A stretch of DNA of 64,000 bases, taken from Symbiodinium sp. CCMP2592. Lineage: Eukaryota > Sar > Dinophyceae > Suessiales > Symbiodiniaceae. Shown here one piece after another: positions 3,001 to 57,204 of the stretch. The notes below the pieces were generated by a model. The model ran no database searches and was not told where the DNA came from. It saw nothing but the letters and a program-made list of their open reading frames with translations. The stretch's first letter is position 1, and the number at the start of each line of letters is the position of its first letter. The stretch spans positions 1-64,000 of the forward strand of contig CAJNDT010000611.1 of assembly GCA_905221615.1 (NCBI GenBank), given 5' to 3'. The translations under genes and the position numbers were made by a program.

Positions 3001-3340
3001 CGGGGCCTTGACGCTCAGAGCCGCTCTCCTCAACGGCGCGCTTGAGGGAGGAGAGGGACTTAGCCTCTGCTGTCTCCTTTTCCTCCTTGGCCACTGCAGG
3101 AAGGCGGGTGTCGCGCCGTGCCTCAGGAGCCGCAGCCGCGGCCTCCTGGGCCGAAGCAGCAAGCTCCTCCTTGGCGCGTGCCGCCGCTCTTTCCCGTGCC
3201 AAGCCTGCCTTCATAGACTCCTCGAGGCTAGGGATCCGGACCTCCGGACTCCCTGCCTCAGCTGGGGGAGTCACGTTGGCCGCAGGCGCTGCAGAGGAGG
3301 AAGACGCCTCCTGAGAGGCAGCCGGAGGAGCAGGAGCCAT
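2..3340 (-). CDS. Second ORF of the retroelement: RanBP2-like fingers, membrane segment, SWIM finger, PLD-like nuclease (partial)
   Basis: This frame is open from 3514 to the left window edge and has no stop in the window, so the protein is truncated by the window. The first in-frame Met is at 3340, giving 1,113 residues to the edge. The N-terminus is Ala/Glu/Pro/Lys-rich and probably disordered. Around residues 322-336 and 407-426 are Trp-Cys fingers of RanBP2 type; the second reads C-x4-C-x10-C-x2-C with the usual Trp and Asn. An RG/GGK-rich stretch follows, then a hydrophobic segment (about residues 687-712, with VVLLW and VVLWW). Next is a SWIM-type CxCx8CxH finger (residues 767-780). The C-terminal part resembles a PLD/HKD nuclease module: HAK at 242-250 and GSLN at 185-196, followed by an EVGIAV strand. 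The HKD aspartate position is Thr, so activity is uncertain. Codon use and GC match the upstream polyprotein. It overlaps that ORF by 70 nt in the -1 frame, so it may be a separate ORF, a frameshift product, or one ORF broken by an indel. Confidence 0.75.
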   Translation of the reverse strand, partial: MAPAPPAASQEASSSSAAPAANVTPPAEAGSPEVRIPSLEESMKAGLARERAAARAKEELAASAQEAAAAAPEARRDTRLPAVAKEEKETAEAKSLSSLKRAVEESGSERQGPAAKRATTKKEEAPSAPAGPAGAAAGTGAAPSSSGEAGAEEGASGAAAPSSTDKRRRAEPEGPPPPKKRFTTWQDTMESPAPQHRVSGVYGLSNEVPGAAWRDVDWDATPPPGPGRPGARDVDPRLTVPLDLQHDEQIKEFFRGGGEHTLEQLLALARRRRRAFVYQAAILSNRPVFEIWPDYDENELGPTPERVPLLTGKVWPWGWWDCFTCGRANPPERNTCRHHDSEELGGAPCVGIFEDSLYWSTPVDLRTAPAWFIEVGLDEHKERIKEYLYAKRSDAIAAAMSNAYWTCGRDTCQERNMLWRKLCFKCSGPKSGASFITHGMPPQEGDDEAASSAEESEGTKMERIERSINADPLAEHARKFLRSGRKRLRAEKRRQAELSQDSARAWWSQPSSGRGAPSGGRSSGSKGGGKGGGRGSSTRYGNRGWWAGGAAGLAYSSRLGERAGQPALTLPLRGQGGHRVAPEAPAVSSRPAVSSGPSNRGGFLGAVRSIGAAVASWALSRRARNRAAHATTGNIGWKMGLVAAALAPTLFTVERGAREVAHVSLTAGATAAEDLIEESSGILVRGVRVVGLTAVVLLWTFAAVVLWWAGRVATNRLMHAMNGNPFGNAVLVSLEGREAVFEAASKTKAGAHRVLVKVGSGADGAGCDCRAFLNEGRCGHVDRAVEAAGQLVAMTGASAAPTLPAAPAATRRARAILGAPALEQGCLAGMVSKARALSERARNVGSPSEGCLDGISKLRGRQGVATVSAPPTETVPKTPASGATRPGASAVSPAPTVPLSSQARRVRDFPLPDGFERAGVTFLTLPEYHSVVQMMLADAGQGDHVYVRAYSFDSKPLVGALVSSLERGARAHVLADNSQTSRTKLQLQSLKELGAAGVQVRVGKGTSVKAAYAAENRTDVSIGAGLEGIHHAKTVLVTRPDSTVSAVIGSLNFSASSRANAEVGIAVASVLTSEFSQKWLDSFGTEWSKALKLEEFEAPQRNHRGRAKPSNVQ

Positions 3341-12300: not shown

Positions 12301-15300
12301 AACCTGCGTCGCGTGATCGGGAACCGCGTCTTCCCCTACTGCCCAGGGAACAGGACCGTCACCTTCGGTCCCTTCTCCAAGGTACTGGTCCAGGTCGAAC
12401 CCCTTCAGCTGGCCAGTCATCCCGACCAAGTCCTTGGTCCGGGCGGCCAAGAGCTCGTCCCGACCCTTCGGGTTCCTGGAAAAGGAGTCCCCCAGCGTCG
12501 CACTGCGACCACTGAGACTCCTGATCTCAGACCCATCCATCAAGATCTCCGCAACCCATCGAACCAGTTTCTGGTCGGAGCCGATATCAGAGGACTGCGC
12601 TCTCGTAAGATTGGCATGGTCCGTCCAACACAGGGTTCGGATAGTTCCGAAGACCTTTCGGGTTGCTCGCTTGACTTCGAGCTGTGCGAAGGCTTCTTGA
12701 ATCAGCGGGGGCCAATTTTGCTGCGCAGGGGTCAGACTCTTGGAGTGAGTCATAAGAACCTTAATCCTTGAGAGGTCCCTGCTCATTTGCACCACCGAGC
12801 CCCCTACCGCAATCCCGCTGGCGTCCGCTATCTGCTCAAGCGGGCAAGAGCCATCAGCAGCCGACGCCTCATCGAAGGCCGCCAGGCTGATATGGTGGCT
12901 CATCATCTTCTTGATGGCCTTGAAAGCCTTGCAGCCGGCAGTGGTGCCTGTCCCCAGGCCACCTTCCGGAAACTCCGCTCCCGGTTTCTGCCATTGGCCC
13001 AAAACCTTAGCAGCATGGCCATATTCCGCTGGCAGATAGCCCCGAAGCCAGTTCGCACACCCAAGGAATTGCTGGATGTGGAGCTTTTCCTTAAGCGGCG
13101 GGAAATCCACGACCGCTTGGCATCGCTCCTCGTCGGGCGCACTCCCGTGCCGCCCGATCCGGTGCCCGAGGAGCTTACCCTCTGACACACAGATCTCAGC
13201 CTTGGCGACACCAAAGGAGAACCCAAAGAGGATGCTCTTGTCGAGGAAAGCTTCCAAAGAGACCAGGTGATCGAGAAGGTGCGGGCAAGCACCCTTGTGC
13301 CTCGCACCCATATCCTCCCGCAGCTTGTCGTAGTAGTAGTCGGAGGGAGGTTCCTCGATCATCTTCTCAATGTCGGCCGATTCCACTATGTGGTACACCG
13401 GCTCGTTCCTAGTGTCCACTCTGGAACCACTAGTGACGTCTCGGCCGTGGCTTCCTCCAAGCCCCCTCGTAGCGGAACCCGCATCCCATCCTGCCCAACG
13501 CGGCCCCGTCTTCGTCCTGAAGACCGCGAGATCGGACGTGACGGGCACGGTCGACCAGTCGACAGACTCGGGCCAAAGCCTGAGGTCCCTAGTCTGCCAC
13601 AACCGCCACGGGCCGCCAGAAGACTTCAAGAGGCAAGTCTCGTACGGAAGCCTTTCGACATCCGGCCGATTCTCCGGGTCACCTTCCTGGGGCCTGCCGC
13701 TCCAAAGGCCAGCCATTCCTCCCTTCGTCTGCCACCACTGGCCCTCAGTGGGGATGGAGGAGAGGAAGGACACGGCATCCGGATCCGTAACCACGGACTC
13801 CGTGGCCCAAGGCCCTCCTAGGACCGTGCTTACGGCGGCAAGGGCGAAAACCGCCCCAACCCTCAGGCCCTTACGCCAACCCCTGCTGTGCGAGCATGCG
13901 CCGCAGCCTTGCAGGCCACAGACGGCGGTCCTCTCGGTGGACCCGCACGCAAAGCATCCAGGGAAGGTCGAGTCTTCGGCAGTGCCTAATCCGCAGTTCC
14001 CACACGGGTCACCACTCGCGTCCGTAAAGAGGGTCTCAACCCCTCCGCATTCACACGCGGTGGTCTGCGCGAGCCCGGTCCGGACCTCGCCGACGACGGC
14101 ACCCGGAGAGACAGTCGTGTCCTCTTCGGCTACCAGCAAGATCGAACCTTCCTCGGCTCCTGTGGGCCACAGCCCAGGCACTGCTTCGCAGTTGGCGGAC
14201 TCTACCGGGAGGACAGCCTCCGTAAGGGAGCCATCCTGGCCTCCACTGCCTTCCCTCTTCACAGGTGCGATGACCCCATCTCCGGCCAAGAGCTCCAGCG
14301 GGTTCTCCCCGCTGTACCGGAGCAGGTCCCTGCCTCCGGTACCCGGCTCAAAGCACAGAGCACCGTCGAGACTAGAAAGCCTGGACTCGAAGGCGTAGGC
14401 GCGGTCCTTCCGCGACCTACTGTAGTCTTCGCACCTGGGGATCTTAATCCCAAGGGTTTCCAGGGAGTGGCAGTCAGGAAGGGGCTTGAAGCCCAAGCCC
14501 TGCCGTCCCGAGCAATCCAAGGCGCGGCCGCCAAGGATGAGCCCATGCCAATCCGAGGTTCCTTTCGCGGCTATTTTACAGCGCACGAATATCTCTGGAC
14601 CCTCGCTGCAGTTGTCGGGGGAGAGCCCCTCCAGAAAGCGGACTCTCAGCACGACGGCCCCCTTCAGGGGCACCGGCTTCCCTGCAGCGATCCCATGGAC
14701 GAACTCCGGATGCACCCAGCGTTCGAACTTCACGACAGGAAACCTCCGGTCCTCCGTGCCGATCCCCAAGGCAGCAGCCCGGTTGAGGATCCCACAGAGG
14801 AGTTCCTCCGTGATGTGGTTCGAGCCTGCACACCCGTCCAGCATGCATTCCACCATGCCGTCGATGACCTGCACGACTGTTCTGTACTGGTACCCCCCGA
14901 CCTCGTTCTCGCAGAGGTGCCACCAGTCCTGAGGCAGCTCGTCCAACGAGCTGAACTTCGACGACGAGCTCTTGGCAAGCGGGAAAGCGGAGGAGTTCGC
15001 CGCAACAACCGTGCCAGCGCTCCCAATCTGGATGGAGAGCGTAGCGAAGGGATTCACCATCCCGGCGCCACTCGGGGCCGCCCAGTTCGAAGGCAACGCG
15101 GCTCCCCCAGTGGCGGGAAGCGAATGGACCATGTCACAGTCCGCTCCCTTACGGCACGACCCGTTCTTCTTGAAGAAAGGGCAGATAGTCCCTGGCGGCT
15201 TCGCGCCCGCCTTGGACTTCGCCTTGGGCTTGGCCTTGGCCTTGCCTTTGGGCTGCCCTCCGGGTCCACCCTTGCCCTTGCCCTTGCCCTTCCCCGGCGT

Positions 15301-17373
15301 TGTCGCCAGGGTGGACGCGTCCCGCTCCTTCTTGGCCGCGAGGGCCTTTTTGCGGAGCTCCTTGTCGTGCGAGTAAGGGCACGCGTCCCCTTTTGGGCAG
15401 TTCCCGTGGTCGCGGAAATGGAAACAGATAGGCTTACCTTTTCCATTTCCTTTCGGACCAGCGGCAAGCGTGGAAGAGGCGGCCGCCTTGGCCGCGGCCT
15501 TAGAAGCCTTGAGCTCCGTCCTCAGCTTCTCGACCTCCTTCCGCGCGGCGGACAGGGCTGGGTCTTCCGTCGAACCTGCGTACACGCTATTAGCCGTCAC
15601 CCGATGCGCAGCCTCACGCTGCTCATATTCGAGGACGACCTTATGCGCTTCTTCCCAGGTCGAAGGGCCTCGAAGCCCTGCGGATGCGCCGTCGCTAGGC
15701 CACAACCGCTTATCACCGCGGATCTCCTTCTGGAGATGTGGAGGCATCTTGCGCAAGTAGCTTAGGAAGAGCTCCCTCGCTGTCTTGCCAAGACCCACAC
15801 TCTCCAGCTCCGCGATGGAGGCCTCAAACAGGGGCTCGAACTGGTGCCCTGTGAGACGGCCCTTAGTGAGGGCGACGTGCTCCGCGTCCACCCTCATCTC
15901 CTTCTCTTCTCGGCTCTCGCCGAAGACAAGGTGCCGCTGCTTGATCCTTTCGTAAACGGCTTGGGGATTCTCAGTAACTTCCCCGGTCTTGGAGGCAGCC
16001 TTGTACACGTTAGTAAAGGTCTTAAGCCTCGAGCCGCGGCAGCGAGCACGAAGGGCGATGAGTTTCTCCCGGAAATTCATCCCCTTGCAGTTGTTGGCAA
16101 GGCCACAGACGTCCTCGAACTCTTCGTAGAACTGGACCACGTCCCGGATGTCGGAGCGATCGTCGGTGAGCGAGGGCCATTGGAGGTCCGTCTTCACGGT
16201 CGTGATCGACGTCTGACCTCCGCGAGACGCCAAGGCCTCCTTGAGCGCCTCGGTCTGGGCCGCCAAAGCTGCAGCGAGCTCTCCGGCTCCGCCGCTGGCG
16301 GAGTGAGGCTCGCCGGGCTTATCCTTCTTAAGCCCTTCGAGCTCTATCTCCAGAGCCGCAAGGCGGGACTTCAGGGGTGAGTCCCCCGGACCAGGTTGCG
16401 GATCCTCAGGGATCGCGAGCTGAAGGTCCACCGGGAGAGGCGCCGGTGCTCCGGACTTAGAGCCCGACTCCGCAACGGCGCCCGTCCGGGCCGCCAGGGC
16501 CGGGACAGAAGAAGGAGTGCTCCAAACCTTCTCGGGATCGCCGCTGCTCTTGCCTCCCAGGGCCAAGATCAGCTCGCCGAGGCACGAGATCTCCTTCTCG
16601 ACCTCCTCTCGGTCTTCCGACCCAAGAGAAACCGCGGCAACGGTAAACCTGGTGCGCAGGGCCCGCACCATCCTGGCAGGGTGCCAGTCACCTCCCATTT
16701 TGCCGTATTCCTCGGCAAGGATGGTGGCCTTGGTAGTGATCTTCTCAAGATCCTCCACCGTGACCTCTGCCTGGTGCGCCTTCAAGGCCACAACCAGCCT
16801 TGAAACCCGCGTCAGGTAATCCGCGACCGGTTCCTGGTCGGGACGGTAGAGCTCCCGCAGGTCCGCCTGCAGGGTCTCCGCCGTGACGGGACCACCCGTC
16901 CCAGCAGACGAGGGAGGCCCGGAACGGGCCGGGCCGCCGGCCACCGGCGAGAGAGCAAGCGCACCAACACGGCGCGCCGTCTCGGCCACGTCCGCCGGCG
17001 CAGCGGCAGGACGCGGAGCCGGTACCCCGGCCTCCGGCAGAAGCTCTTCAGAGCTGGGGCCCGGATCGCCATCCTGAGCACCCGGGCCCGCTTCCGCAGC
17101 TGGAGCTTCCTCATCTTCCTCTTCATCTTCTTCCTCTTCCTCTTCGGCATCGAAGTTGTCGTAGAGGAATTCCATCGTCTCCTTCCACAGACGCTGTTCA
17201 TCTGCTAGCGTCGTGGATCGTCCGTCCTTCTTCTTGGTGGGACGGGACCCCGTTTCCTTACGCCAACGGAGCCAGTACATAAAGGGCATCTTCTCCGGGT
17301 ACTCCACTGACCCATCCTCGATGCACCTCAGCAACGTGGCTCCTTCCGGCTGACCTGCGACCTCAGCGCTCAT
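3271..17373 (-). CDS. Retroelement polyprotein (gag, CCCH fingers, protease, split RT/RNase H, integrase, Tpt1-like, C2H2)
   Basis: A single uninterrupted 4,700-residue frame starts at the Met at 17371-17373. N-terminal 1-600: acidic run near 75-92, then a helical gag/capsid-like region (about 400-560). CCCH fingers at 650-669 and 731-750 are both C-x8-C-x5-C-x3-H. A protease-like motif MLDGCAGS has its Asp at 846, with LILGG further on. The RT thumb/connection (about 1344-1443, LLGH motif) runs into RNase H (Asp1517, Asp1585). The integrase zinc motif is H-x6-H-x29-C-x2-C from His2339. The core triad is D2408, D2468, E2504, with exactly 35 residues between the last two. An SH3-like integrase tail sits near 2618-2672, and a weak BAH-like stretch near 2728-2795. 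RT fingers/palm appear only at about 3272-3427 (motif A Asp3355, YVDD 3423-3426). Then come two hydrophobic segments, a Tpt1-like domain (3725-3927), a Pro-rich region and a C2H2 finger from 4368. The integrase, RNase H and RT motifs are Ty3/gypsy-like. The last 60 or so residues are Arg/Leu-rich and look out of frame. Confidence 0.93.
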   Translation of the reverse strand: MSAEVAGQPEGATLLRCIEDGSVEYPEKMPFMYWLRWRKETGSRPTKKKDGRSTTLADEQRLWKETMEFLYDNFDAEEEEEEDEEEDEEAPAAEAGPGAQDGDPGPSSEELLPEAGVPAPRPAAAPADVAETARRVGALALSPVAGGPARSGPPSSAGTGGPVTAETLQADLRELYRPDQEPVADYLTRVSRLVVALKAHQAEVTVEDLEKITTKATILAEEYGKMGGDWHPARMVRALRTRFTVAAVSLGSEDREEVEKEISCLGELILALGGKSSGDPEKVWSTPSSVPALAARTGAVAESGSKSGAPAPLPVDLQLAIPEDPQPGPGDSPLKSRLAALEIELEGLKKDKPGEPHSASGGAGELAAALAAQTEALKEALASRGGQTSITTVKTDLQWPSLTDDRSDIRDVVQFYEEFEDVCGLANNCKGMNFREKLIALRARCRGSRLKTFTNVYKAASKTGEVTENPQAVYERIKQRHLVFGESREEKEMRVDAEHVALTKGRLTGHQFEPLFEASIAELESVGLGKTARELFLSYLRKMPPHLQKEIRGDKRLWPSDGASAGLRGPSTWEEAHKVVLEYEQREAAHRVTANSVYAGSTEDPALSAARKEVEKLRTELKASKAAAKAAASSTLAAGPKGNGKGKPICFHFRDHGNCPKGDACPYSHDKELRKKALAAKKERDASTLATTPGKGKGKGKGGPGGQPKGKAKAKPKAKSKAGAKPPGTICPFFKKNGSCRKGADCDMVHSLPATGGAALPSNWAAPSGAGMVNPFATLSIQIGSAGTVVAANSSAFPLAKSSSSKFSSLDELPQDWWHLCENEVGGYQYRTVVQVIDGMVECMLDGCAGSNHITEELLCGILNRAAALGIGTEDRRFPVVKFERWVHPEFVHGIAAGKPVPLKGAVVLRVRFLEGLSPDNCSEGPEIFVRCKIAAKGTSDWHGLILGGRALDCSGRQGLGFKPLPDCHSLETLGIKIPRCEDYSRSRKDRAYAFESRLSSLDGALCFEPGTGGRDLLRYSGENPLELLAGDGVIAPVKREGSGGQDGSLTEAVLPVESANCEAVPGLWPTGAEEGSILLVAEEDTTVSPGAVVGEVRTGLAQTTACECGGVETLFTDASGDPCGNCGLGTAEDSTFPGCFACGSTERTAVCGLQGCGACSHSRGWRKGLRVGAVFALAAVSTVLGGPWATESVVTDPDAVSFLSSIPTEGQWWQTKGGMAGLWSGRPQEGDPENRPDVERLPYETCLLKSSGGPWRLWQTRDLRLWPESVDWSTVPVTSDLAVFRTKTGPRWAGWDAGSATRGLGGSHGRDVTSGSRVDTRNEPVYHIVESADIEKMIEEPPSDYYYDKLREDMGARHKGACPHLLDHLVSLEAFLDKSILFGFSFGVAKAEICVSEGKLLGHRIGRHGSAPDEERCQAVVDFPPLKEKLHIQQFLGCANWLRGYLPAEYGHAAKVLGQWQKPGAEFPEGGLGTGTTAGCKAFKAIKKMMSHHISLAAFDEASAADGSCPLEQIADASGIAVGGSVVQMSRDLSRIKVLMTHSKSLTPAQQNWPPLIQEAFAQLEVKRATRKVFGTIRTLCWTDHANLTRAQSSDIGSDQKLVRWVAEILMDGSEIRSLSGRSATLGDSFSRNPKGRDELLAARTKDLVGMTGQLKGFDLDQYLGEGTEGDGPVPWAVGEDAVPDHATQVAPATAAAVPVGVAGGPPVRVMIVFDYAPWTEQERALTEIREVFVSGIPGHSIAVRGCWGPFEDDDGVASHFDGMTGKLTGPKKVKKLRVDLLTSCAKVLREAAAFSPTFLVGLGQGGVVTAALRWPLVVEVTLQARNLQRKEARVAGLAWAGIKGIWSLKPKVWKAHSTHAEVAEACPEMGREFPEPPIPGYGIVGKIAASAEVLSSLKLEGISKVADVSLRGLVDAPSRELWDHEGVCACGKRTYLFSRCPSCIRQEAEETALEVAEAQAEKEAAEGPESADPSVSLEVNALLSASLADGSVDIDTDLIRAWAKGFLQKPVEGLLPTVYGRIKARVWTGGDLELPVEGCEKDGPSLWSSWVVNASGEVLQGHQAFPSCLSGPSSLNWAVEPNWHSHRHVVNSECERIWNLQEGEVRLRESFACLLGLKGEVDRVEGWNDGDGIQSLGHRKSLRASPVIAAFQCSGEEGHWMAVQLSKKIEVKEGELSRTLAFVGSATKAPRVVVELYSSHRPFCVKSHSVRTCRVKVSASGGSGPLSLGSFPVLSDKDSPESQREKLALAARDGAGLCEFGVTPALRTAWHEAQRRDPSLTASVKKPEAPFKLGSDGVLEREVTIKTGQTVVVPVVPNGIAGPNGVTWRKSCYMTVHCGLLGAHRSAEVTFRLLERAVWWPGMEPDVKLWVSKCLACVKGRARATKVEAKPVKCLAEACWQEVSVDCEGPNREDRDGFRYSITYFDCLSHAVLLEPMKTLTHTDVRRAFLRCVLRSRTLPRLIRSDRGTEFKNAMMLELCSMLGTTQQFSMALRPCEMGSNERVHQEVQKVLGNLIRHIGGSMENWSEWLMVAEYVLDNTPGAHGYTPRDLERSWSLALPLEKDVLREALQFEPITDWARSQFKQFSDLAAAVRRHWDASSEARARLANRSRRTVELRVGDRVVWNSPKPRPEGAGRVPWKPGLTGPWRIVAVKGHRLQLELVPGGPGEAPGRQCEAHAEDVVLVPEDAEVPEKRDPIEFFDEPEHQPPSLGQQAAGEAKQVEFTVKRRGRNFVLRIGDHVAYHGARVGPKTCRLGKVTQVDEARAQVGVHRYIPDASGLRVRWHLAFLDEGGSLTREGTRQAIESITVKEIISKVDLSRDGVLAASSARKLDKAGYSLQESVPDRVGVAASPIDVPAALKELLAEAPAPSLIVGRGSSCTAVQGWIRDHLKGMDMDLVEVAVSEHSLTQVSKAGGLRSPPAAVQGASSYGIRWDFSSEEDRQALSLLVDTLDPKCLGVGLSGKGIPKEFLSLVSRWGAMVAEKGRQMLVTISDQEGLWEPWEAQGWAPVFGTLSEPKFPWAFGRADRCQLLGSVTRGSKHSEGALICLSNFKMDSVCVRCAKPDALGRVAHQHAKARTSSRVLAPALCRCLADAGLRGDQPPCYDSICSVSGQSPAEPAKPSAPEVPLPDVKSGEDLSPQERAKMEAEVLEFSRKMDAHWRSKADAKDWDGVFADLEVYALAGQAVAADPRRTPEYKAQVIEGLRLGPTENRPGLTEADPAAIKETVGRKAAAFWVEGTARTTVRKFAHDCVPTGPPVSSQPHALRGEAAQWVDDRLEEEVQRGQLVRGPSAWGSAPFPTKEMPSHKRARKRRLVGDYRRVNARVKRSTYYCRRSTDVLAAAVGSVWYSFVDAVSGFNQIRNTKRAREVLAIVARSGKYLPIVLTFGPVNGPDDFNYVVDRAYAPGRNRRLRFTKEWVAYVDDLTVRTGRVIDGRFLTDAEAEEEIRTACRKGSRSAPQTAASAFEALGARGRDGSSSSPPDADRKVAPKAKAKHDEPLTDTNHPTRALYPNSLVFVLTACVLTAGSRLGFGVLVCRVGGVRGGTWGAARTQACTPVGRYLLSMLLLVACVLQQGCSEVVQGVGRAECEPYPISLCSPLEPPAFQDMAAQRGLKTSSPVACDGPRGPLPSASCASRCALAHVGREVACTPLSFAAGGSSVDRLVAEPLPLFPTCAGPLVGQGAARGAMGGGRRRGNEGKGGRDSNSRWQPWVWLENPAVCQRALTQALRHGKFGLQGHLGEGGWISVSALAEKLQITSSAIEEGAASDLENAAGGREKQRLELVDGRIRALQGHGRGSGLTAGTVYGDGLDEAGMRELSVEYGGSTLCHGTEVFHARRIGRDGLLPGGGNGPRLTVHWVSGPGYPRQRDSTSGFRKNSTCLVVSNLELLRASGVPVWRGTDGCVLTGRVPPECILRILTVQPGCEVFDLSLAERQGNNLRWVDDAEPGSGVRREQSAPPGGAGPVNYYIGDEDSSSELEVEVRAKSSAMPAGPPPGPPKEGGPRGMPSARHRSRTVDDRPPPGREGKLKPTPKVAPEGAPSAGEQERGRSHRPPQKVPPEAPPADTIRYKTPPRARDELPEDPQAAPGDPEGAGAAPGDQPMEADRTLTPADLFHPKNFSKKANPKPPPKRPAVPEGVVTVKPGPTPKGVRPPPPFLIMETERAEEFLSPRPGWLLGGPAEPPIARSPPPPPAARNRSERPLPHGGLGPGPYQGPIRPKLGGPPLKAAPKGAVPSAEAPSASSASTGGPEGSREGGTAVPEETEEERAKTEAILRGIDDFMSSVERRSASQERPAPKSPARHTFVPFSVDPIPEEAAVPGEFVDLGDTPDRSAIHGGGVAGCPTPEEIGNGDPRRVPSRGSGHKCGIRGCRAEFEHEYEAAYHRAEVHGRGLPANMVPAPCDDAFFGEAAVALRRFRHGEARRDHRDRVWVFEADVGRFTHISNPDRFCDRIGAELRDFRRLPDGAPCGTSDGLWRTYRLDRRPVQRAKPPVRYPSTILGPAYEETDFMMPNAAAPSPYRHLFRDETPLGEALEAIREEQGRPGEVPEDVEPPPPAFPDELLEPQDPDVDAPREDTPREHVQAMRETFSDLIWNDHDGLREEKLAAGVLNPIAKQTDTQLEIDPPMLETDLLPREKGVSRGLEPRLIHDGVRSLRLPALRRKLRHLRRRIPRIRRWLLLLRLPLRRRLPPLQRLRPT
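5593..6200 (-). other. Tpt1/KptA-like RNA 2'-phosphotransferase domain
   Basis: Residues about 3725-3927 follow the Tpt1/KptA pattern: LTQALRHGKFGL, then GGWISVSALAEKL, then QRLELVDGRIRALQGH, then LCHGTEVFHARRIGRDGLLP, a VHWVSG segment, and finally GCVLTGRVPPECIL. The family transfers an internal RNA 2'-phosphate to NAD+; the LRH Arg, the ALQGH His and the HGT motif are all present. Its place inside a retroelement polyprotein is unusual. Activity on RNA is inferred from motif retention only. Confidence 0.82.
7092..7560 (-). other. RT fingers/palm module, displaced to after the integrase
   Basis: About residues 3272-3427 show the classic order: an EEEVQRGQLVRGPSAWGSAPF segment, the RRLVGDYRRVN finger, motif A YSFVDAVSGFNQI (Asp3355), a motif-B-like LTFGPVNGPDDF, and motif C AYVDDLTV (3423-3426). 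The similarity stops shortly after motif C, exactly where the thumb would begin. The thumb is instead about 6 kb upstream in the coding direction. The three catalytic aspartates are intact. Confidence 0.9.
9360..10362 (-). other. Integrase domain
   Basis: The zinc-binding part is H-x6-H-x29-C-x2-C (His2339 onward). The catalytic core has VSVDCEGP (D2408), SDRGTEF (D2468) and NERVHQE (E2504), a D-D-35-E triad. The C-terminal part, with RVGDRVVW and GPWRIVAVKG, matches the SH3-like tail of gypsy integrases. All acidic catalytic residues are present. Confidence 0.92.
12580..13345 (-). other. RT thumb/connection and RNase H module (lacks fingers and palm)
   Basis: Residues about 1344-1443 read like the part of a Ty3/gypsy RT that normally follows the YxDD box: a HL-x2-HL helix, a KAEIC segment, LLGHRIG, then PDEERCQAVVDFP and FLGCANWLRGYLP. 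RNase H follows with IADASGIAVGG (Asp1517), a QEAF glutamate and WTDHANL (Asp1585). No fingers or palm motif precedes it. The upstream 350 residues are Cys-rich and otherwise unrecognised. The missing half is about 2,000 residues downstream in the same frame. Confidence 0.85.
14515..14900 (-). other. Aspartic protease-like domain of the polyprotein
   Basis: The frame shows a hydrophobic strand followed by MLDGCAGS, comparable to the D-S/T-G loop of retropepsins, with the Asp at residue 846. About 95 residues later LILGG resembles the second conserved hydrophobic-Gly segment. The domain lies between the second CCCH finger and the RT thumb, where a retroelement protease is expected. The exact DSG/DTG triplet is replaced by DGC, so proteolytic function is inferred. 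Confidence 0.6.
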
Positions 17374-18439: not shown

Positions 18440-18660
18440 AGAGACTCCAATATCCCTGAGTTTGGGAAGATACCTTAAAATATGGGAACTTCAAAAAGAT
18501 GTGGTCTAAGGTCTGTTCCTTCTTTAATTAGCCCCAAGGGTCCAAGTACCTGATAATCAGATACTCTCCAAAATCCTGACCTACATAACTACTATCCTAA
18601 AGCCGAGAACCTAAGTTTTATGGTGCTTTGGACCCTTAGGGAAGGGGTATTGGGATCTCT
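18440..18660. mobile_element. Family D MITE interrupted by a family E MITE
   Basis: Family D arms AGAGACTCCAATATCCC and GGGGTATTGGGATCTCT enclose an intact family E element at 18533-18641 with arms AAGGGTCCAAGTACC and TTTGGACCCTTAGGG. The order of insertion is therefore D first, then E. Confidence 0.75.
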
Positions 18661-20270: not shown

Positions 20271-20380
20271 ATATGGGAGTTCCCGAACATAGGGGATCCA
20301 AATATGGTAACCTAAATTGTAGGATACTCATTATAAGGACCCCCAAAAAAGATACCCCTCATTTTCGGAAACTCCCATAT
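20271..20380. mobile_element. Family A MITE with ATAT duplication
   Basis: GGGAGTTCCCGAA and TTTTCGGAAACTCCC arms are flanked on both sides by ATAT. Confidence 0.8.
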
Positions 20381-28155: not shown

Positions 28156-28293
28156 TATGTGGGAATTTCCGAAAATAGGGGACCCTAAATAATAGAGTAC
28201 CTTCAAAAATCCTCAATAGTAGGATCCTTATTGTAAGGATCCCAAAAGAAAGAATCCCAATATAAGGCACTCCTAATTTTCGGAAACTCCCAT
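28156..28293. mobile_element. Family A MITE with internal partial duplication
   Basis: GGGAATTTCCGAAAAT and ATTTTCGGAAACTCCC arms flanked by ATGT on both sides. At 138 bp it is longer than other A copies because of repeated AATCCT/AAGGATCCC-like centre segments. Confidence 0.8.
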
Positions 28294-28392
28294 GTGGGTG
28301 GTTGTCAAAATTAGGGTCCCTTTTTGATATATAATACGGCACCTATTATTTAGGGTACCCAAAAAGGGACCCTAATTTTGACAACCACCCAT
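28292..28392. mobile_element. Family J MITE abutting family A
   Basis: TGGGTGGTTGTCAAAATTAG is exactly mirrored by CTAATTTTGACAACCACCCA. It begins at the right boundary of the preceding A element, so one inserted beside the other. Confidence 0.85.
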
Positions 28393-28519: not shown

Positions 28520-28865
28520 GAGTTGGGGGTTTGATTTGGGAGAGCGTGGGTTTAGGGTGTCAGGTTTTGGGAGAGCTTGGGTTTAGGGTGTCAGGTTATA
28601 GGAGAGTTTAGGTTTAGGGTGTCAGGTTAGAGGAGAGTTTGGGTTTAGGGTGTCAGGTTAGAGGAGAGTTTGGGTTTAGGGTGTCAGGTTATAGAGGAGT
28701 TTGCAGGATATGGGAGAGTTTGAGTCAAGGGTGCCAGGTTTGGGGAGAGCTTGGGTTTAGGGTGCCAGGTTTTGGGAGAGCTCGGGTTTAGGGTGTCAGG
28801 TTATACGAGAGTTTGGGTTTAGGATGTGAGGTTATAGGAGAGTTTAGGTTTAGGGTGTCGGGCTA
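28520..28865. repeat. Minisatellite with TTTAGGG-containing unit
   Basis: About ten tandem units of roughly 33 bp. Each contains GAGAGTTTGGGTTTAGGG and a TGTCAGGTTAT word. Units differ by small substitutions and one is shortened. Confidence 0.9.
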
Positions 28866-37206: not shown

Positions 37207-37651
37207 CGCAGACCCCGAATGAAAACCCCCCTAAATCCTGCACCCTTCTAAGGCCCTACTTCTAAGAACCATCAAGTCAGCAACGTCCTTCAAGAGCTGC
37301 TGCATGAAACCCTTGTGCTCAATTAATTGTGCCTTACTGCGTTCTCCCTGGGAGTCGAAGGACTAGTATAATTGAAGGGATTAGGGTTTAGGGTTTGGGA
37401 CTGGAGTATATAATAATAGGGTTTATAGGGATGCAGATAAGCCTTGGAAGGGCTTTGCAAAAGCTTTCGAAGCCTCAAGATGGCACTCATTTCCATACAT
37501 ATATATATATAGTATCACAAGTTACATTTATATGTTATGTAAGTACGATGGTTTATACCTTGAAGGTCATACAGCAAACAACGCCTCGCGTTCCTTACTC
37601 TGGTAACTTAACTAGGTTACAATTATACCACCTAGTCCCTCAGCCCTAAAC

Positions 37652-37762
37652 CTATGGGTCCAAGTACCTAATAATCATCTACTCTCCCAGATAGTACTGG
37701 TAACCTACATAACTACTCTCCGAAACCTAAGTACCTAATTATGGGTCCTTTGGACCCTAGGG
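37652..37762. mobile_element. Family E MITE
   Basis: TGGGTCCAAGTACCTAATAATC is paired with a right arm GGGTCCTTTGGACCCTAGGG. Confidence 0.75.
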
Positions 37763-37793: not shown

Positions 37794-37974
37794 CAGGGTC
37801 CACATACCCAAATATCATATGATCTGGCCTTGAAGTAGTCCAGATAAAGGTACGCACTTCGGGGTCAATCAATCTACTCTATGGTACATGGGCCACTACC
37901 CTAAGGGTCCTAGTAATTATGTAGTTTTACATTTGGGAGAGTACATGATTATTAGGTAGTTGGACGCTTAGGGT
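37794..37974. mobile_element. Decayed family B copy followed by a short family E variant
   Basis: 37794-37892 keeps the B layout with diverged arms. 37898-37974 has ACCCTAAGGGTCCTAGTAAT and ATTAGGTAGTTGGACGCTTA arms. Confidence 0.5.
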
Positions 37975-38081: not shown

Positions 38082-38177
38082 GTTGATGGACAAAATCCTG
38101 CATTACCCATTATAAGGAATATACCATAGTTCCCATAGTTTAGAGTCCTTAGGGTCATGCAGGATTTTGTCCATCAG
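38082..38177. mobile_element. Family C' MITE (GGACAAAATCC arm variant)
   Basis: TTGATGGACAAAATCCTGC is mirrored by GCAGGATTTTGTCCATCAG. The centre is the same as family C. Other C' copies: 47316-47415 and 56806-56901. Confidence 0.8.
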
Positions 38178-38190
38178 CAGTATCAGTGTA

Positions 38191-38406
38191 TTCCTAAGGG
38201 TCAATGTAGCCAAATTGTAAACACTTTAGCCCGGAAGTACCCCAGATAGGGAGTACTTTGAGGACAGACTGTATACCATACTTCGGTTGACGATATAAAT
38301 CCTGCATGACCCATAATAAGGAATATACCATAATTCCCATAGTTTAGGGTCCTTAAGGTAATGCAGGATTTATATCATCAACCGTTGGAGACATGGATCC
38401 TGAGGG
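38191..38406. mobile_element. Family B MITE interrupted by a family C MITE
   Basis: B arms CCTAAGGGTCAATGTAGCC and ACATGGATCCTGAGG surround an intact C element at 38284-38385, which is flanked by TT on both sides. Confidence 0.75.
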
Positions 38407-40196: not shown

Positions 40197-40291
40197 TACC
40201 TGTAGCCCAAACGACCTGCCTGTTTTTAAGGAATTATATCTAGAAACCATAATAAGGAACCCTAAAAAGGTAGGTCTTCCGGCTACAGGTA
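40197..40291. mobile_element. Family R MITE
   Basis: TACCTGTAGCCCAAACGACCT is mirrored by AGGTCTTCCGGCTACAGGTA. Confidence 0.7.
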
Positions 40292-41205: not shown

Positions 41206-44200
41206 ATTTCCGTGAAGAGGAGTTTGGTAGCCGACGAACAGCTCGGGAAAACGACCAAGTACTGGCCATCGACAGGAAGAGTACCAAGGTAGGGATGCAC
41301 GCACATGCCACTCTCCTCCGGTCCATGGCTAGGACCAGGATGGAATGAAAATCCAAGATTCTATTCCTTATAAGGTTTAAGTGCTTAGAAAAAATGTAAA
41401 ATGTTCCACGACTATGACAAAGTCCTTGTGTTTCAAGACAAACTCGGCCCCCGCGGCTGTGAAGATGAACATTGCAGTGTCGACATTTCCACACGAGTCC
41501 CAAGCCACGAGCTTGCCATTCATGGAAGCCTGACCATTTCGGGGATGGATGCATCTGCCATTCCTTGGCTGACTTCTGAACGCCTCCTAAAAATTAAACT
41601 TGTAGCCTCCTTCTTCTAGCTCATGTAGAAACCCAAAAAGTGAAAGTCCTAAGAGCCAACCAGAAAACGGCCAAGATTCTCGAGCTGGAGGTTGAAGTAG
41701 GCGCCGTCACTCTGAAAGTACACCTTCCTGAAAAGCAGGGCCGTGGATGTGCTGCAGGAGTCGGAGAACACGAGAGGCTCGTCATTTCCGGGGTCTGTGC
41801 TTCCAGATTCCGCACGAACCTGGGCTCTTGTTAAGGATTGTAACCTAAGTTACCATAACAAGGAATTTTGAATTAAGTGACCATAAAAAAATCCCTAGCA
41901 TTTACTATAGATCCCTGTTCTGGCACCTTAATGAAATTAAACCCTAAGGGTCCAAGTAGTGCTTATTTATGATTTTGGCTACCGAAAAAAGGCCCCAAAA
42001 TCCTATTATATGGAGTACTTGGACCCTTAGGGAAAATTCCTTAACAAGAGCCCAGGAAACCATAGTCTTTGCCTTTACTATAGATCCCTATGCTGGCACC
42101 TTAAACTAAACTTCCTTAACAAGAACCCAGGAACGCACTTCCCATTCCAGTGTTTCAAGAGGAAGCTGTCTCCCGCAAGGCTCGGCGGTTTCGTTGCAAA
42201 GGACATCCGTAAGGGCAGAACCCACATCCTCGCCTGGGCGGAAGCGATAAAAATCTCTGGAGGGTTTATAAAGGGTTTAGGGTTTTATAGGGTTTAGGAT
42301 TTTTTTCATAGGGTTTAGGGTTTTATAGGGTTTAGGATTTTTTTCATAGGGTTTAGGGTTCAGGGAAGCTGCGAACTCTCAAGGTTTCAGTGACCTTCCA
42401 AAGACTGTGTCGGTTTAGGGTTTAGGATTGCCAACTACCAAACGACAATGCCACGTGCCCCGCTGGTGTTTCAGCCAGTTACGCTGTCAAGTTTGCCAAA
42501 GTCTCTCTTGCCAGGGTCCCCAGTAGCCCCCCGAATAATAATAAGTTAAGGGTACCGCTTGTTCCTACTATTTGGCTTTGATGAATGAGGGAACCCTTAA
42601 AAACAAAGGTCAAGGGGTGCTACTGGGGAACCTCGTTTGTAGGGCGGGTGTTCCCCCACACCCTTGCCGATCGCAAGACCTCGACAGAACAGAAATCAAT
42701 ATCCGCAGGGGTCCACGCGCCCAAATCGTGATTATATGCGTTGGCCTCAAAGTACCTACAGGGCTGCCTTTCACCCCATGGAACCTTCTTAAATCGCTTA
42801 TACAGCCTTCACGGGGCCCGAAAACGCACACCATGCTCCTAATCCGAACTTCTTAACCCAGCAAACCCTAAGGTTTAGGGTTTAGGGTTCAGGGTTTTAG
42901 AACCCCTCTAACAAACCTCCTATATCACCCTTAATCCCTCGAACTCTAAACCGGAGAAATGAAATGGAGAAAGAACAAGGGACGACCGAGTCGATGACGA
43001 CCTTCGAAAGCGCAAATGCACCCAAGGCCACCTTGCTTCTGACCCTAAGGGTCCAAATACCTAATAATCAGACACTCTCCCAAATAGTAACCTACGTAAC
43101 TACTATCCGAAACCTAAGTACCTAAATATTGGATCCTTTGGACCCTTAGGGTGAGTTTCAGGGTTTCCGGTTTGGGTGCTTCTAAGGGCTGTAGGGTTTG
43201 AGGGCTTGTAAGGGGTTTAGTGCTTAGGGCTGAGCGTCCAGTTTTTTTTGTGGGGTTTGGGTTTAAGGGCTTAGGGCTAAAAAACAGGGTCTCAACTATT
43301 GGAATAGAGTTTGGAGATACATTTGTATACTAAAGTCATGATAAGGAGCCATACGCATAAGGAATAGTTGTACTATGTCTTCGGAATCTATATTATTTTG
43401 CATTGTTAGGATTGTAGGTTTTAGGGTTGAGGGTTAGTATGTCTAGTCGGGTATAGGGGCTTTCCGGTTGGATCTTTCTAAAGACTGTACAATACTATCC
43501 TACACTGGGTTCTCGTTACGGTTTCTGAATTACCAGAATCTCACAAGAACCCAGCTATTCCCAAGAGCGGCCCAGCAACAGTTTCGAGAAAAGCCTCCGA
43601 CACGACGAAGATGCCCAAAAAGGCGTCCTGAACCCAGGCATCATCAGTCGAGTTGAAATACACGGTCTCCTGAAGAGCACATGATTGCCGTAAATCCGTA
43701 TGAGATAGATGAGCTTGGTATGTGAGATTCGATGGCGCCCATAAATCGCATGCTGAGTTCGGATCCAAACTCTCCGTGGCCAAAGCAACGTCCATCCTCC
43801 ATGTTAGATTCTCACCTCCCAACAGGGACGATGGCAGCGGAAGGGTCGGGAGCAAAAGCTGCATCGAGATGTTGTGGCCGTCCACGCTCACGTTGAGGCT
43901 GGGTTCATGTAGCTCGCCGATCGCACTGGTGACGTTTACTTTCGAAGCAGATGCTTCACATGCCTTGGGAGCCAGATTGGGGGGCTCATAACGCCAAAGC
44001 TCCCGTGACATAAAAGCACCAGAGTAGACGTAGAATCGGCCAGCTGCATCCACAAAAGAAGAGTGGCCTTGCCGCTGGCCTGGGCCATTGCCAGAGGCAT
44101 GAAGGGTCCAACCACCAAGCGCAGTGTCAAAGGACCAAAGATCCGCATTGCCGCCCTCACCAGCAAAGATCCAGAAGCGGCCCAGTCCGTCGAGGTGGCC

Positions 44201-45478
44201 AGTCAGGTATCGACGTTTTGCCGGGCTTCCAACCGAACTACCGGAATCGACCTCCGTCCACACTGCAGCACTGGTGTCCAAACTCCACATTGCATTGGAC
44301 CATCCTCCGTTTGGGAATCTGCCCCCGAACTGCCAGAAAATGTCGCCACGATCAATATCTCCAGTTCCTGAACATACAGCTTCGCGAGCGCTTCCATCAT
44401 CAACTTGGAACCATGAAGAAGACTCCTCGGTGAAATGCCAAAGCTCACCATCTTGATTGTACCCTCCTTCGAAGTTGAAGCCTCCATAAACCCAGACTCT
44501 CTTGCCTGGGTTGTAGTTGTTACCCCAAGGGTCCAAGTACCTAATAATCATATACTCTCCAAAATCCTAACCTACATAACTACTATCCTAAAGCCGAGAA
44601 CCTTATTATTGGGTCCTTTGGACCCTTAGGGTTTGGCCTCGAACATAGTTCTGGGTAGGTACACTGTACAGCAAACCCCAAAAAGGTGGAAACCGAATTA
44701 AGGACAAGAAGTGCTGGGATTCCCTATATACATTAATCTTCAGGATTGAGGCTAGTGGGTTTCCAAGCTTTAAGCATAAAAGATTCTCAAAGCTATACCT
44801 AGCTGCTGCTGTCGATGAAAACGTGGTGGCCCCAACGACGCAGTGGCCCACCATCTTGGGAAATACGACTCCACGAAGAGATTGAGATCCTGGGCTGCTC
44901 AGTATTTAGGGCTTAGGGTGTATATGGTCTAGGGGTGAGGGTTTAAGGTTTAGGGTCTAGGGTTGAGGGCTTGGGGCTTAGGGTTTGTAGATGGCTACGT
45001 CTCGATTAGTAGAACATATTAGGGAAAGAAGATGCAAACAAAAGACAAGTGAAACAACTTAATATAGGGGATCCCACAAGATAGTATTGGTTATCATTTT
45101 TTAGGCCCCTATAGCACCACTGAACAGCCTTGAATCTGGAACTTCCAAAGGTCCGCTGTATCGTCGCCAGAGAAAACGAAGAGGTTTCCTCAGGCACCAG
45201 ATTCCACGGAGCATAGCTGAAGGTTTGAGTCTGGGAAAGATGGAGGGGCACTTTAATCCCTAAAAAAACTGTGGCAACGAAGCGAACCCTAAACCCCGAA
45301 CTCTGACCGCTCCTTGTCCGTCTGACGCCACGCAGCCTTGACCGTTCGAGCGGACTGAAGGCGGAGAGCCGTCCTCTTCCCTCCACGACTCACTCGCCAC
45401 ATTAAACCTCCACAGCTTCGACCCGCCAAAGGGTAAGTGCCACCAAACATCCTAGGCGTTGGCCATCATTTCCATATC

Positions 45479-45522
<44 letters not shown>

Positions 45523-45786
45523 GTATGTATGCATGTAAGTAGATGTGAGTATATATATATATATATATATACATATATATATGTACATACGAGTAGCATG
45601 AGTATGATGTACAGGCATAACCTTATTCAAAATACAAAGTATTAAGGCACCATAGTACCAGAGATCCGTCTGGCAATCATGAACCGCTGCGGCATTCATG
45701 CCACCGGGACCATCAGTGGAAACGATGCTCCAAGCTGCAGCTGCGAGTCGAACAGTATCAAGAAAGAGCCATCTCCGTCGCTGCAT
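41206..45786 (-). CDS. Kelch beta-propeller protein with lectin-like repeats (spliced, 5' and 3' ends uncertain)
   Basis: Exons on the minus strand: 45786-45667, 45451-45313, 45188-45137, 44889-44807, 44505 to about 43580, a possible small one at 43026-43009, 42233-42135, 41819-41680, 41563-41425, and 41315 to about 41206. Splicing at the 4-bp duplications rejoins kelch motifs: [53 protein letters not shown]. The long exon alone holds about four more kelch blades (VWVYGG, FWQFGG, FWIFAG, FYVYSG) and N-glycosylation-type sites. The later exons encode three Cys-paired repeats beginning [20 protein letters not shown] and [10 protein letters not shown], each followed by a second Cys (FSDSC, AWDSC, FPSC). 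These resemble beta-trefoil-type sugar-binding repeats, which is an inference. The start Met at 45784-45786 is only the first in frame; a signal-peptide exon may be missing. Between about 43580 and 42233 the structure is tentative. A stop follows soon after 41206 in any plausible frame. Confidence 0.75.
41316..41424 (-). mobile_element. Introner-type intron, GA donor, AGGA duplication
   Basis: A 105-bp inverted-repeat element (family O, 41318-41422) is flanked by TCCT on the plus strand (AGGA on the minus), exact at 41314-41317 and 41423-41426. Splicing between AG and GA within each duplication rejoins VLKHK to ESGMCVHP in frame. A second family O copy lies at 52260-52360. Confidence 0.7.
41564..41679 (-). 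mobile_element. Introner-type intron, GA donor, GAAT duplication
   Basis: A 112-bp element (41564-41675) has minus-strand termini CTTGGCCGTTTTCTG and CAGAAGTCAGCCAAG, matching as an inverted repeat in 12 of 15 positions. Exact GAAT copies flank it. Removing the element plus one GAAT gives NLQLE/NGRCIHP, completing a lectin-like repeat. The intron is GA...AG. Confidence 0.8.
41820..42134 (-). mobile_element. Introner-type intron, GT donor, GTTC duplication, with nested MITE
   Basis: A 311-bp element (41820-42130) has plus-strand termini CTGGGCTCTTGTTAAGGA and TCCTTAACAAGAACCCAG. It is flanked by exact GAAC (GTTC on the coding strand). Canonical GT...AG splicing gives HWNGKC/VRAESG in frame. 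Inside are a complete short family E-like MITE (41942-42032) and an internal duplication, with TTTACTATAGATCCCT at 41901 and 42074 and the right terminus present twice (42038-42056 and 42113-42130). Confidence 0.85.
42245..42365. repeat. TTTAGGG-type tandem repeat
   Basis: Two copies of an approximately 49-bp unit with GGGTTTAGGATTTTTTTCAT, inside the region between the long kelch exon and the lectin-like exons. Confidence 0.8.
43042..43152. mobile_element. Family E MITE
   Basis: ACCCTAAGGGTCCAAATACC and TCCTTTGGACCCTTAGGGT arms; lies within the poorly resolved intron of the kelch gene. Confidence 0.8.
43293..43370. mobile_element. Short palindromic element
   Basis: CAACTATTGGAATAGAGTTT is mirrored by GGAATAGTTG. 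It resembles a diverged family H copy. Confidence 0.4.
44506..44806 (-). mobile_element. Introner-type intron, GC donor, GCA duplication, with two nested MITEs
   Basis: Termini on the plus strand are CTGGGTTGTAG and CTATACCTAG. Coding-strand flanks are GCAG and GCAA. GC...AG splicing gives [14 protein letters not shown] family E MITE (44523-44631) and a family I MITE (44666-44776) make up most of the 301 bp. Confidence 0.75.
44890..45136 (-). mobile_element. Introner-type intron, GA donor, GAT duplication
   Basis: Coding-strand flanks are GATT and GATC. Termini CAAGGCTGTTC and GAGCAGCCCAG match as an inverted repeat in 8 of 11 positions. Splicing gives LWKFQ/ISISSW in frame. The intron holds a partial family H copy (45063-45112) and a TTTAGGG tract (44900-44990). 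Confidence 0.7.
45189..45312 (-). mobile_element. Introner-type intron, GA donor, AGGA duplication
   Basis: Exact AGGA copies lie at 45311-45314 and 45187-45190 (coding strand). Splicing between AG and GA gives [13 protein letters not shown] and restores a kelch strand. Terminal inverted repeats are weak here. Confidence 0.65.
45452..45666 (-). mobile_element. Introner-type intron, GA donor, GAT duplication, with microsatellites
   Basis: Coding-strand flanks are GATC and GATG. Termini CTGGTACTATGGTGCC and GGCCAACGCCTAG are a gapped inverted repeat. Splicing gives [14 protein letters not shown]. The centre has expanded (AT)n and (GTAT)n runs at 45484-45585. Confidence 0.6.
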
Positions 45787-46451: not shown

Positions 46452-46555
46452 TGGGAGTTTCCGAAAATAGAGGACCCTAATATAGGACCCTATAGAATAG
46501 GATCCTTATTACAAGGACCCCCAAACAAGGTACCCCTAATTTTCGGAAACTCCCA
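46452..46555. mobile_element. Family A MITE with AGGT duplication
   Basis: GGGAGTTTCCGAAAAT and ATTTTCGGAAACTCCC arms are flanked by AGGT on both sides. Confidence 0.85.
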
Positions 46556-47315: not shown

Positions 47316-47415
47316 CTTGATGGACAAAATCCTGCATGACCCTAAGGACTCTAAACTAGAGGATCCATGGTATATTCCTTATTAATTATGGGTCATGCAG
47401 GATTTTGTTCATCAG
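47316..47415. mobile_element. Family C' MITE
   Basis: TTGATGGACAAAATCCTGC and GCAGGATTTTGTTCATCAG arms. Confidence 0.8.
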
Positions 47416-50669: not shown

Positions 50670-50771
50670 GGGAGTTTCCCAAAATAGGGGACCCTAATAT
50701 GGTACCCTAAATGGTAGGATCCTCATTATAAGGACCCCAAAATAAGGTACCCCCTATTTTCGGAAACTCCC
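50670..50771. mobile_element. Family A MITE with ATGT duplication
   Basis: GGGAGTTTCCCAAAATAGG and CCTATTTTCGGAAACTCCC arms; ATGT at 50666-50669 and 50772-50775. Confidence 0.85.
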
Positions 50772-51000: not shown

Positions 51001-51343
51001 TAGGTCGGCCGCGACCGCTTTATGACCGCAGCCATCAAGACGACGTCGGCACCACTGGTTTGATTGCAGCTCCTCGTAAGCTTTGGCTTTCCCTGGGTTT
51101 GGGTTGTAGAGTAGACCTTAACCCCAAGCAACCCTCCACTTTAAGGACTTGTACAAAGAAAACATATTAGGGAACCCTAAAAAGGTAGGTTCCGTAGGGT
51201 CCAGGGAGGGTTTCAGAGCCAGGGTCCTCACGAGGTTTTGGCTGTTGTTTTGGTGTTTAGGTTCGAGAGCAGAGGGTTTAATTTAGGGCTTGGGAACAGA
51301 ACGGTTTAGGGTTTATGGTTTATGGTTTAGGGTTAGAAGGCTT

Positions 51344-52259: not shown

Positions 52260-52360
52260 CTAGTTCATGGCTGGGATAGGATCAAAAAATGTACACGTTT
52301 TGCTCCTTATTGGGTTTAAGTACCCATAGAAATGCAAAATGTTACCCAACCATGACAAAG
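52260..52360. mobile_element. Family O element outside a recognised gene, exact TGAA duplication
   Basis: Related along its length to the intron at 41318-41422, sharing TTACC/TTCC-ATGRC termini and ACATTTTGCAT- and CTTATTGGGTTTAAGT-like segments. TGAA lies at 52256-52259 and 52361-52364. Termini CTAGTTCATGGCTGGG and CCCAACCATGACAAAG are inverted. Confidence 0.7.
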
Positions 52361-56805: not shown

Positions 56806-56901
56806 GTTGATGGACAAAATCCTGCATGACCCTAAGGACTCTAAACTATGAGGACCATGGTATATTCCTTATAATGGGTAATGCAGGATTTTGTCCATCA
56901 G
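56806..56901. mobile_element. Family C' MITE
   Basis: TTGATGGACAAAATCCTGC and GCAGGATTTTGTCCATCA arms, nearly perfect. Confidence 0.85.
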
Positions 56902-57009: not shown

Positions 57010-57204
57010 GGCTGATGATATAAATCCTAGGGTTCCCTTAAAGGGATCTATAAGGGTACCTTTAAGGGGCTCCTTAAAGGGATCTATAGGATTTTAGGGT
57101 TTAGGGTTTACGGATATAAATCCTGCATTACCCATAATAAGGAATATACCATAATTCCCATATATTCCCTATTCTGGGTAATGCAGGATTTATATCATCA
57201 ACCG
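57010..57204. mobile_element. Family C MITE carrying a telomere-tailed insert
   Basis: C arms CGGCTGATGATATAAATCC and GGATTTATATCATCAACCG. The left arm is split by an 84-bp insert (57029-57112) ending in TTAGGGTTTAGGGTTTACG. The insert is flanked by exact 12-bp GATATAAATCCT copies (57017-57028, 57113-57124). Confidence 0.85.

Follow-up and report, generated by a model that had tools for sequence, protein, structure and literature searches.

What is the origin of the introns in a gene whose nine predicted introns begin with three different splice donors, GA, GC and GT? The gene in question lies on the minus strand (45786-41187) of a 64,000-nucleotide stretch of the Symbiodinium sp. CCMP2592 genome (positions 1 to 64,000 of contig CAJNDT010000611.1; hereafter the window) and encodes a protein with kelch repeats and a lectin-like C-terminal part. 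We consider it highly likely that introns 8 and 9, very probably intron 7, and probably several others are introners, i.e. short non-autonomous DNA transposons resembling miniature inverted-repeat transposable elements (MITEs) that inserted into exons. This reading is based on dispersed families of elements with common ends, 4-bp duplications, empty sites for two copies of the intron 8 family, restoration of the reading frame upon removal of the element, and one family whose members would use GT as well as GA donors. Judged from the DNA, at least two introns of this gene are mobile elements whose duplicated target bases appear to act as the splice donor.

The kelch/lectin gene is real. Its spliced model comprises ten exons (45786-45667, 45451-45313, 45188-45137, 44889-44807, 44505-43580, 43031-42984, 42233-42135, 41819-41680, 41563-41425 and 41315-41187, all on the minus strand) separated by nine introns, and yields a product of 624 residues. 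Kelch repeats were identified by Pfam at residues 51-167 (E 8e-24) with a score of 84.7 for the spliced protein, compared with 58.1 for the single long exon alone, and the C-terminal part has only a weak resemblance to ricin-type lectins (RicinB_lectin_2, E 0.022, 15.9 bits relative to a cut-off of 25.6). A protein search provided homologues from Symbiodinium sp. CCMP2456 (P0002) and Symbiodinium microadriaticum (P0003, 'rngB, partial'). The junctions of introns 5 to 9 are free of gaps relative to P0002, the nearest gap being located a few residues past intron 9, and P0003 is identical at 18 of 21 residues around the junction of intron 1, 19 of 21 at intron 7, 15 of 21 at intron 8 and 16 of 21 at intron 9. 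The annotated model of P0003 lacks the stretch from intron 2 to intron 4, the small exon between introns 5 and 6 and two further stretches, and therefore provides no two-sided test of introns 2 to 6. For introns 2 to 4, no homologue covers both sides of the junctions, which are spanned by the single Pfam kelch match. An initial annotation of this locus had proposed seven introns, all of which are present in the model, and had missed introns 5 and 6, giving a total of nine; its claim that excising each element with one repeat copy keeps the frame is borne out by the 624-residue product. The 3′ end of the coding sequence overlaps a GGGAGTTTCCG MITE (41205-41107, minus strand; flanks AAAT/AAAA by eye), which contributes the last codons and the stop.

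All nine predicted introns are of the form GN-AG followed by G, with GA donors in introns 1, 2, 3, 8 and 9, a GC donor in intron 4 and GT donors in introns 5, 6 and 7. Exact 4-bp direct repeats border intron 2 (45189..45312, AGGA), intron 7 (41820..42134, GTTC), intron 8 (41679-41564, GAAT) and intron 9 (41424-41316, AGGA). Three of four bases agree at intron 1 (45452..45666, GATC/GATG, TA-rich), intron 3 (44890..45136, GATT/GATC), intron 4 (44506..44806, GCAG/GCAA) and intron 5 (43032..43579, GTTG/GTGG), and intron 6 (42234..42983, GTCC/GCGA) has no target duplication. The seven pairs reported in the initial annotation are all found at their minus-strand places, four of them exact and three with a 3/4 match. 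To evaluate these repeats statistically, the first bases of each intron were compared with the first bases of the following exon, with the expectation obtained by permuting exons among introns. Position +1 always matches, because the nine acceptors are AG|G and the donors begin with G. Beyond this base, matches were observed in eight of nine introns at +2, five at +3 and three at +4, which amounts to 16 of 27 pooled over +2 to +4 compared with 7.7 expected (p = 0.0004; +2 alone, p = 0.004). No excess was found beside the duplication, either at +5 and +6 (4 of 18, 5.0 expected) or at -4 and -3 (2 of 18, 4.4 expected). For the nine introns taken together, the 4-bp duplications are genuine, and the excess at +2 means that the second base of the donor tracks exon base +2, as expected for copies of one target.

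Inverted ends are a property of fewer introns. In a fixed register, only introns 3 (11/16), 7 (15/16) and 8 (12/16) stand out, and a permutation test over the introns of the gene gave p = 0.06 for ungapped and 0.026 for gapped comparison. The earlier statement that most introns have inverted termini was thus overstated, such termini being clear in three of nine, and we rejected the idea that terminal inverted repeats (TIRs) characterise these introns in general, since six of nine are at background. TIRs were found in introns 3, 7 and 8 and in the family consensus of intron 9, and are lacking in introns 1, 2, 4, 5 and 6, with no clear TIR in intron 2. The best inverted ends of the gene belong to intron 7, a 311-bp element (CTGGGTTCTTGTTAAGG...CCTTAACAAGAGCCCAG) in which 14/15 positions were paired in a TIR scan and which is bordered by exact GTTC copies; on this internal evidence alone, intron 7 very probably qualifies as an introner. 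Part of intron 7 is directly repeated within it (families D6 and D7), apparently as an incomplete second copy. When 18-64 kb was scanned blindly for a TIR with an exact 4-bp duplication, 50 hits were returned, some overlapping, relative to 17-48 in five offset controls, and such a scan therefore proves little by itself.

One alternative is that these are ordinary old spliceosomal introns, with the repeats as a by-product of the AG|G junction preference and the inverted repeats due to chance. Consistent with this view, every acceptor is AG|G and every donor has G as its first base, introns 1, 2, 4, 5 and 6 have no TIR above background, and intron 6 has no duplication. The same preference calls for caution with the AGGA pairs of introns 2 and 9, since, where donor and acceptor are both AG|GA, part of the repeat follows from ordinary splice-site preference; intron 9 is rescued from this caution by its element family, and intron 2 is not. 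However, the permutation within the gene retains the AG|G preference and still yields the above significance for +2 to +4, and for introns 8 and 9 an ordinary old origin is refuted by the dispersed families with 4-bp duplications that are described below. We regard it as very unlikely.

The relatives of individual introns were sought by a DNA search of the organism's own genome (5383 contigs, 1,098,105,373 bases), in which introns 8 and 9 were the queries that gave a result. The intron 8 element (41564..41675, minus strand) is a 112-bp sequence running CTTGGC...GCCAAG. Searching with it gave 1440 first-look candidates, and among the best 40 that were scored, 39 were located elsewhere and were 88-91% identical. 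Matches extended over the full 112 bp in 29 of the 39, and the other ten covered at least 102 bp, either beginning between bases 2 and 11 or lacking the final base. All 39 listed relatives were fetched, and the duplication was measured in these and intron 8 itself. Exact 4-bp flanks were observed in 23 of the 40 (permutation mean 1.04, maximum 5 in 2000), with the excess of matching bases restricted to four positions; the remaining copies matched at three of four bases in four cases, two in six, one in five and none in two. The median divergence from the sample consensus was 3.6%, with intron 8 at the maximum of the 39 aligned sequences (9.8%; one 131-bp sequence excluded), although such values, here and for the intron 9 family, cannot be taken as ages because resemblance to the query decided which copies were sampled. 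In one copy (L074, duplication GTTA), the joined sequence lies within a 98-residue frame that is open across the junction and has no Pfam match.

The intron 9 element (41318..41422, minus strand, 105 bp) also belongs to a dispersed family, running CTTTGTCATAGTTGGGTAAC...CCCAACCATGAACTAG. A 101-base query (window positions 41320-41420) gave 294 first-look candidates, and the best 40 that were scored included 39 non-self relatives (E ≤ 8.5e-9) matching the first 57-84 query bases at 77-86% identity. A second copy in the window (52260..52360, minus strand; TTCA/TTCA) lies outside any recognised gene. Duplications were considered in 41 sequences (the 39 fetched relatives, intron 9 and the 52-kb copy), of which a script placed 38 fetched relatives and the 52-kb copy. 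Exact 4-bp flanks were found in 26 of these 39 (permutation mean 1.03, maximum 6 in 2000 flank permutations), and the others matched at three of four bases in six cases, two in three, one in three and none in one. Per position, the four duplicated bases matched in 32, 36, 32 and 31 of 39, with permutation-level values outside. The two sequences that the script did not place, L045 and intron 9, have the duplications AACC and AGGA by eye. The ends of intron 9 itself are degenerate, and those of the family consensus are inverted at 12/16 positions by eye. Divergence from the sample consensus had a median of 7.1%, and intron 9 was again the maximum of 39 (22.2%; one 172-bp sequence excluded). The two families bear out the relatives elsewhere in the genome that the initial annotation had proposed to look for, with common ends and exact 4-bp duplications in both.

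Two relatives of intron 9 are predicted to interrupt other genes. For L034 (duplication GTGG, with a predicted GT donor), removing the element and one repeat copy produces a continuous aquaporin-like frame (MIP in Pfam, residues 2-53, E 4e-5) that includes an NPA motif, typical of aquaporins. The same operation on L052 (duplication GAGT, GA donor) joins a frame resembling ERGIC_N (residues 3-40, E 1e-4), for which no match was found in the PDB. Both Pfam matches cross the predicted junction. Members of one element family would thereby carry different donors, each taken from its own duplication, and this variety of donors within one family is the most useful detail of the present analysis. Pfam scans of the joined frames of L054, L058, L051 and L036 returned nothing significant, the single match for L036 having an E of 0.11.

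Another possible explanation is that the elements are passive, i.e. that MITEs entered older introns at a later time, as the CCCTAAGGG MITEs did, and that the introns themselves were not made by elements. Nested CCCTAAGGG MITEs, which are of another kind, do occur in introns 4, 5 and 7, and intron 4 harbours two repeat pieces that recur elsewhere in the window. However, in introns 7, 8 and 9 the predicted splice sites fall at the element ends and the duplication, and removal restores the frame, as it does in L034 and L052, whereas removing an element that had entered an existing intron would have no such effect. We consider passive insertion highly improbable.

Insertion is further supported by empty sites, for which 47 joined flank pairs with exact duplications from both families were compared by blastn to the window and the fetched loci. 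Two convincing cases were obtained, both in the intron 8 family, which adds to the multi-copy families and constant 4-bp duplications of introns 8 and 9. Copy L078 inserted into a CCCTAAGGG MITE, the unbroken relatives of which continue without a gap at the junction (43142-43040 in intron 5, 44622-44523 in intron 4, 37754-37651, 18632-18532 and partly 37911-37973), and the empty site of L070 is located at 51115-51205, with a weaker one at 40200-40275. No empty site of the intron 9 family was found among the flank pairs tried, and hits for L091 and L105 were not counted as they are low-complexity TTTAGGG-like matches. Spread via RNA, by reverse-splicing of introns into new transcripts followed by reverse transcription into the genome, would likewise predict intron families with clean junctions, but is extremely improbable given the 4-bp duplications, the inverted ends and the occurrence of copies, L078 within a MITE among them, whose flanks are not recognisably coding.

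Several observations weigh against an introner origin. The fetched relatives of introns 8 and 9 are the copies most similar to the queries and not a random sample, and an exact duplication is absent in 17 of the 40 measured copies of the intron 8 family and 13 of the 39 of the intron 9 family. Within the gene, intron 6 is without a target duplication, and the ends of the six introns other than 3, 7 and 8 pair at 3-7 of 16 positions, no better than mismatched pairs do. The matches of L034 and L052 fall under the curated Pfam cut-offs (23.9 relative to 25 and 22.6 relative to 27), which is because the fragments are only 65 residues long, and they came from a set of seven joined fragments, drawn from both families, that were scanned. 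Besides intron 8, 23 cases of a copy in a given orientation would carry a GN donor and an AG acceptor (24 rows with intron 8), and openness of the frame is weak evidence at this fragment length. The relatives that would have GC donors, L054 (GCAA) and L058 (GCTG) and, in the intron 8 family, L083 (GCTA), are supported by open frames, with Pfam scans of the first two giving no supporting domain. Finally, a 200-kb sample of contig C5053 contained no copy of introns 7, 8 or 9, its only matches being to repeat-like pieces of introns 1, 3 and 6.

Under the introner hypothesis, an element would insert into an exon and duplicate 4 bp of target. Its ends are of the type CT..AG (CTTGGC..GCCAAG, CTTTG..CTAG or CTGGG..CCCAG), so that the element would supply the AG of the 3′ splice site, and the first copy of a duplication GNNN would become the 5′ splice site, with a GA, GC or GT donor depending on the target. 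With an AGGA target, as in intron 9 and perhaps intron 2, both splice dinucleotides would derive from the two copies of the duplication (AG|GA), the intron 9 element itself ending in GG. Removing the element and one copy would restore the uninterrupted exon and thus leave the protein unchanged. Splicing would take place in the cell at these junctions with the spliceosome as the agent, and the transposase would presumably act in trans. Introns 1 to 6 would share this origin, and introns 1, 3, 4 and 5, with their 3/4 repeats, and intron 6, with none, may be older insertions. The initial annotation had seen this duplication logic in almost every intron and had derived the donors from the target duplication; the former is plausible and is shown in two to three of nine introns, and the latter is supported by families for introns 8 and 9, whereas introns 1 to 6 are backed by the group statistic and not individually, with intron 6 having no duplication.

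Introners and non-GT donors are known from dinoflagellates, as the initial annotation correctly remarked (PMC7789003, PMC9860276, PMC11453091). According to the Fig. 2B legend of Gozashti et al. 2022 (PMC9860276), introners of S. microadriaticum have TIRs and duplicate 4 bp of target; they bring the 3′ splice site with them, and the 5′ site is co-opted from the duplicated bases. Duplication length, inverted ends and the sources of both splice sites are the same as proposed here. Since this use of the duplication as 5′ splice site has been published before for S. microadriaticum, the present finding is a well-supported instance of a known mechanism. Unlike in that description, a second mode is predicted in the same gene, with both dinucleotides of intron 9 derived from AGGA. 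This mode resembles that of Florenciella introners, for which both splice sites are described as coming from the insertion site (PMC9860276). GT and GA donors furthermore occur here in one family, and the likeness to S. microadriaticum is known by mechanism and not by family sequence. Direct repeats near S. microadriaticum introns have also been examined in PMC11782384. Recent intron gain by introners in dinoflagellates, as proposed here, was reported by Roy et al. 2023 (Curr Biol), as cited by a review (PMC11453091), according to which 25-74% of Symbiodiniaceae introns have GC or GA donors. Introner elements with similar boundaries were described in Amoebophrya by Farhat et al. 2021 (PMC7789003), where the introns are bordered by direct repeats of 3-5 nt together with inverted repeats 8-20 nt in length. 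However, more than 60% of Amoebophrya introns are described as non-GT-AG without clear boundary dinucleotides, whereas nine of nine introns of the kelch/lectin gene are GN-AG. The excerpts considered of PMC7789003, PMC9860276, PMC11453091, PMC10666404, PMC4201569, PMC8045281 and PMC11782384 state no general derivation of Symbiodiniaceae GA/GC donors from target duplications; these cover a limited part of the literature and we claim no priority.

The window contains further elements of comparable build. The intergenic GGGAGTTTCCG and GGGTGGTTGTC MITE families are likewise about 100 bp long with TIRs and 4-bp duplications, but have GGG..CCC instead of CT..AG ends, and none forms an intron in the kelch/lectin gene. 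Exact duplications flank GGG..CCC intergenic MITEs at 46453-46554 (AGGT), 50670-50771 (ATGT), 28161-28291 (ATGT), 20275-20376 (ATAT) and 28296-28390 (ATGT). A CCCTAAGGGTCC..GGACCCTTAGGG MITE family is present at 18532-18641, 37651-37762, 43037-43152 (intron 5), 44517-44632 (intron 4) and 41942-42032 (intron 7). Palindromic AAATCCTGCATTACCC..GGGTAATGCAGGATTT repeats occur at 38082-38181, 38286-38385, 47326-47406, 56816-56892 and 57117-57192, a 31/62-bp tandem array at 28539-28859, and degenerate, telomere-like TTTAGGG tracts are widespread from 17.8 to 62 kb, including within introns 3, 5 and 6. A 4700-codon open frame on the minus strand (3271-17373) lies in a segment with a G+C content of 0.61-0.66, compared with 0.44-0.50 in the rest of the window. 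Pfam recognises in it the domains of reverse transcriptase, RNase H, integrase, a CCCH zinc finger and RNA 2′-phosphotransferase (Tpt1/KptA). It is predicted to encode a retroelement-like polyprotein, in which the Tpt1 domain is unexpected. A Pfam scan of ten other open reading frames of the window for more intron-bearing genes gave no match at E 0.01.

If our interpretation is correct, elements with CT..AG ends would be spliceable wherever the duplicated target starts with G, the second base of the donor would be set by the insertion site, and this base would decay along with the duplication. Due to the inverted ends, an AG acceptor is available in both orientations, and insertions in either direction could therefore become introns. 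This suggests looking for a genome-wide association between the second donor base and exon base +2 over all introns. We tentatively suggest that the mixed GT, GC and GA donors of Symbiodinium introns may largely be a fossil record of transposition targets. The kelch/lectin gene provides a compact case in which the DNA itself reveals where individual introns came from and why their donors are unusual, with two introns of one gene traced to dispersed element families. It lends support to the view, already published, that intron gain in dinoflagellates is driven by transposons.

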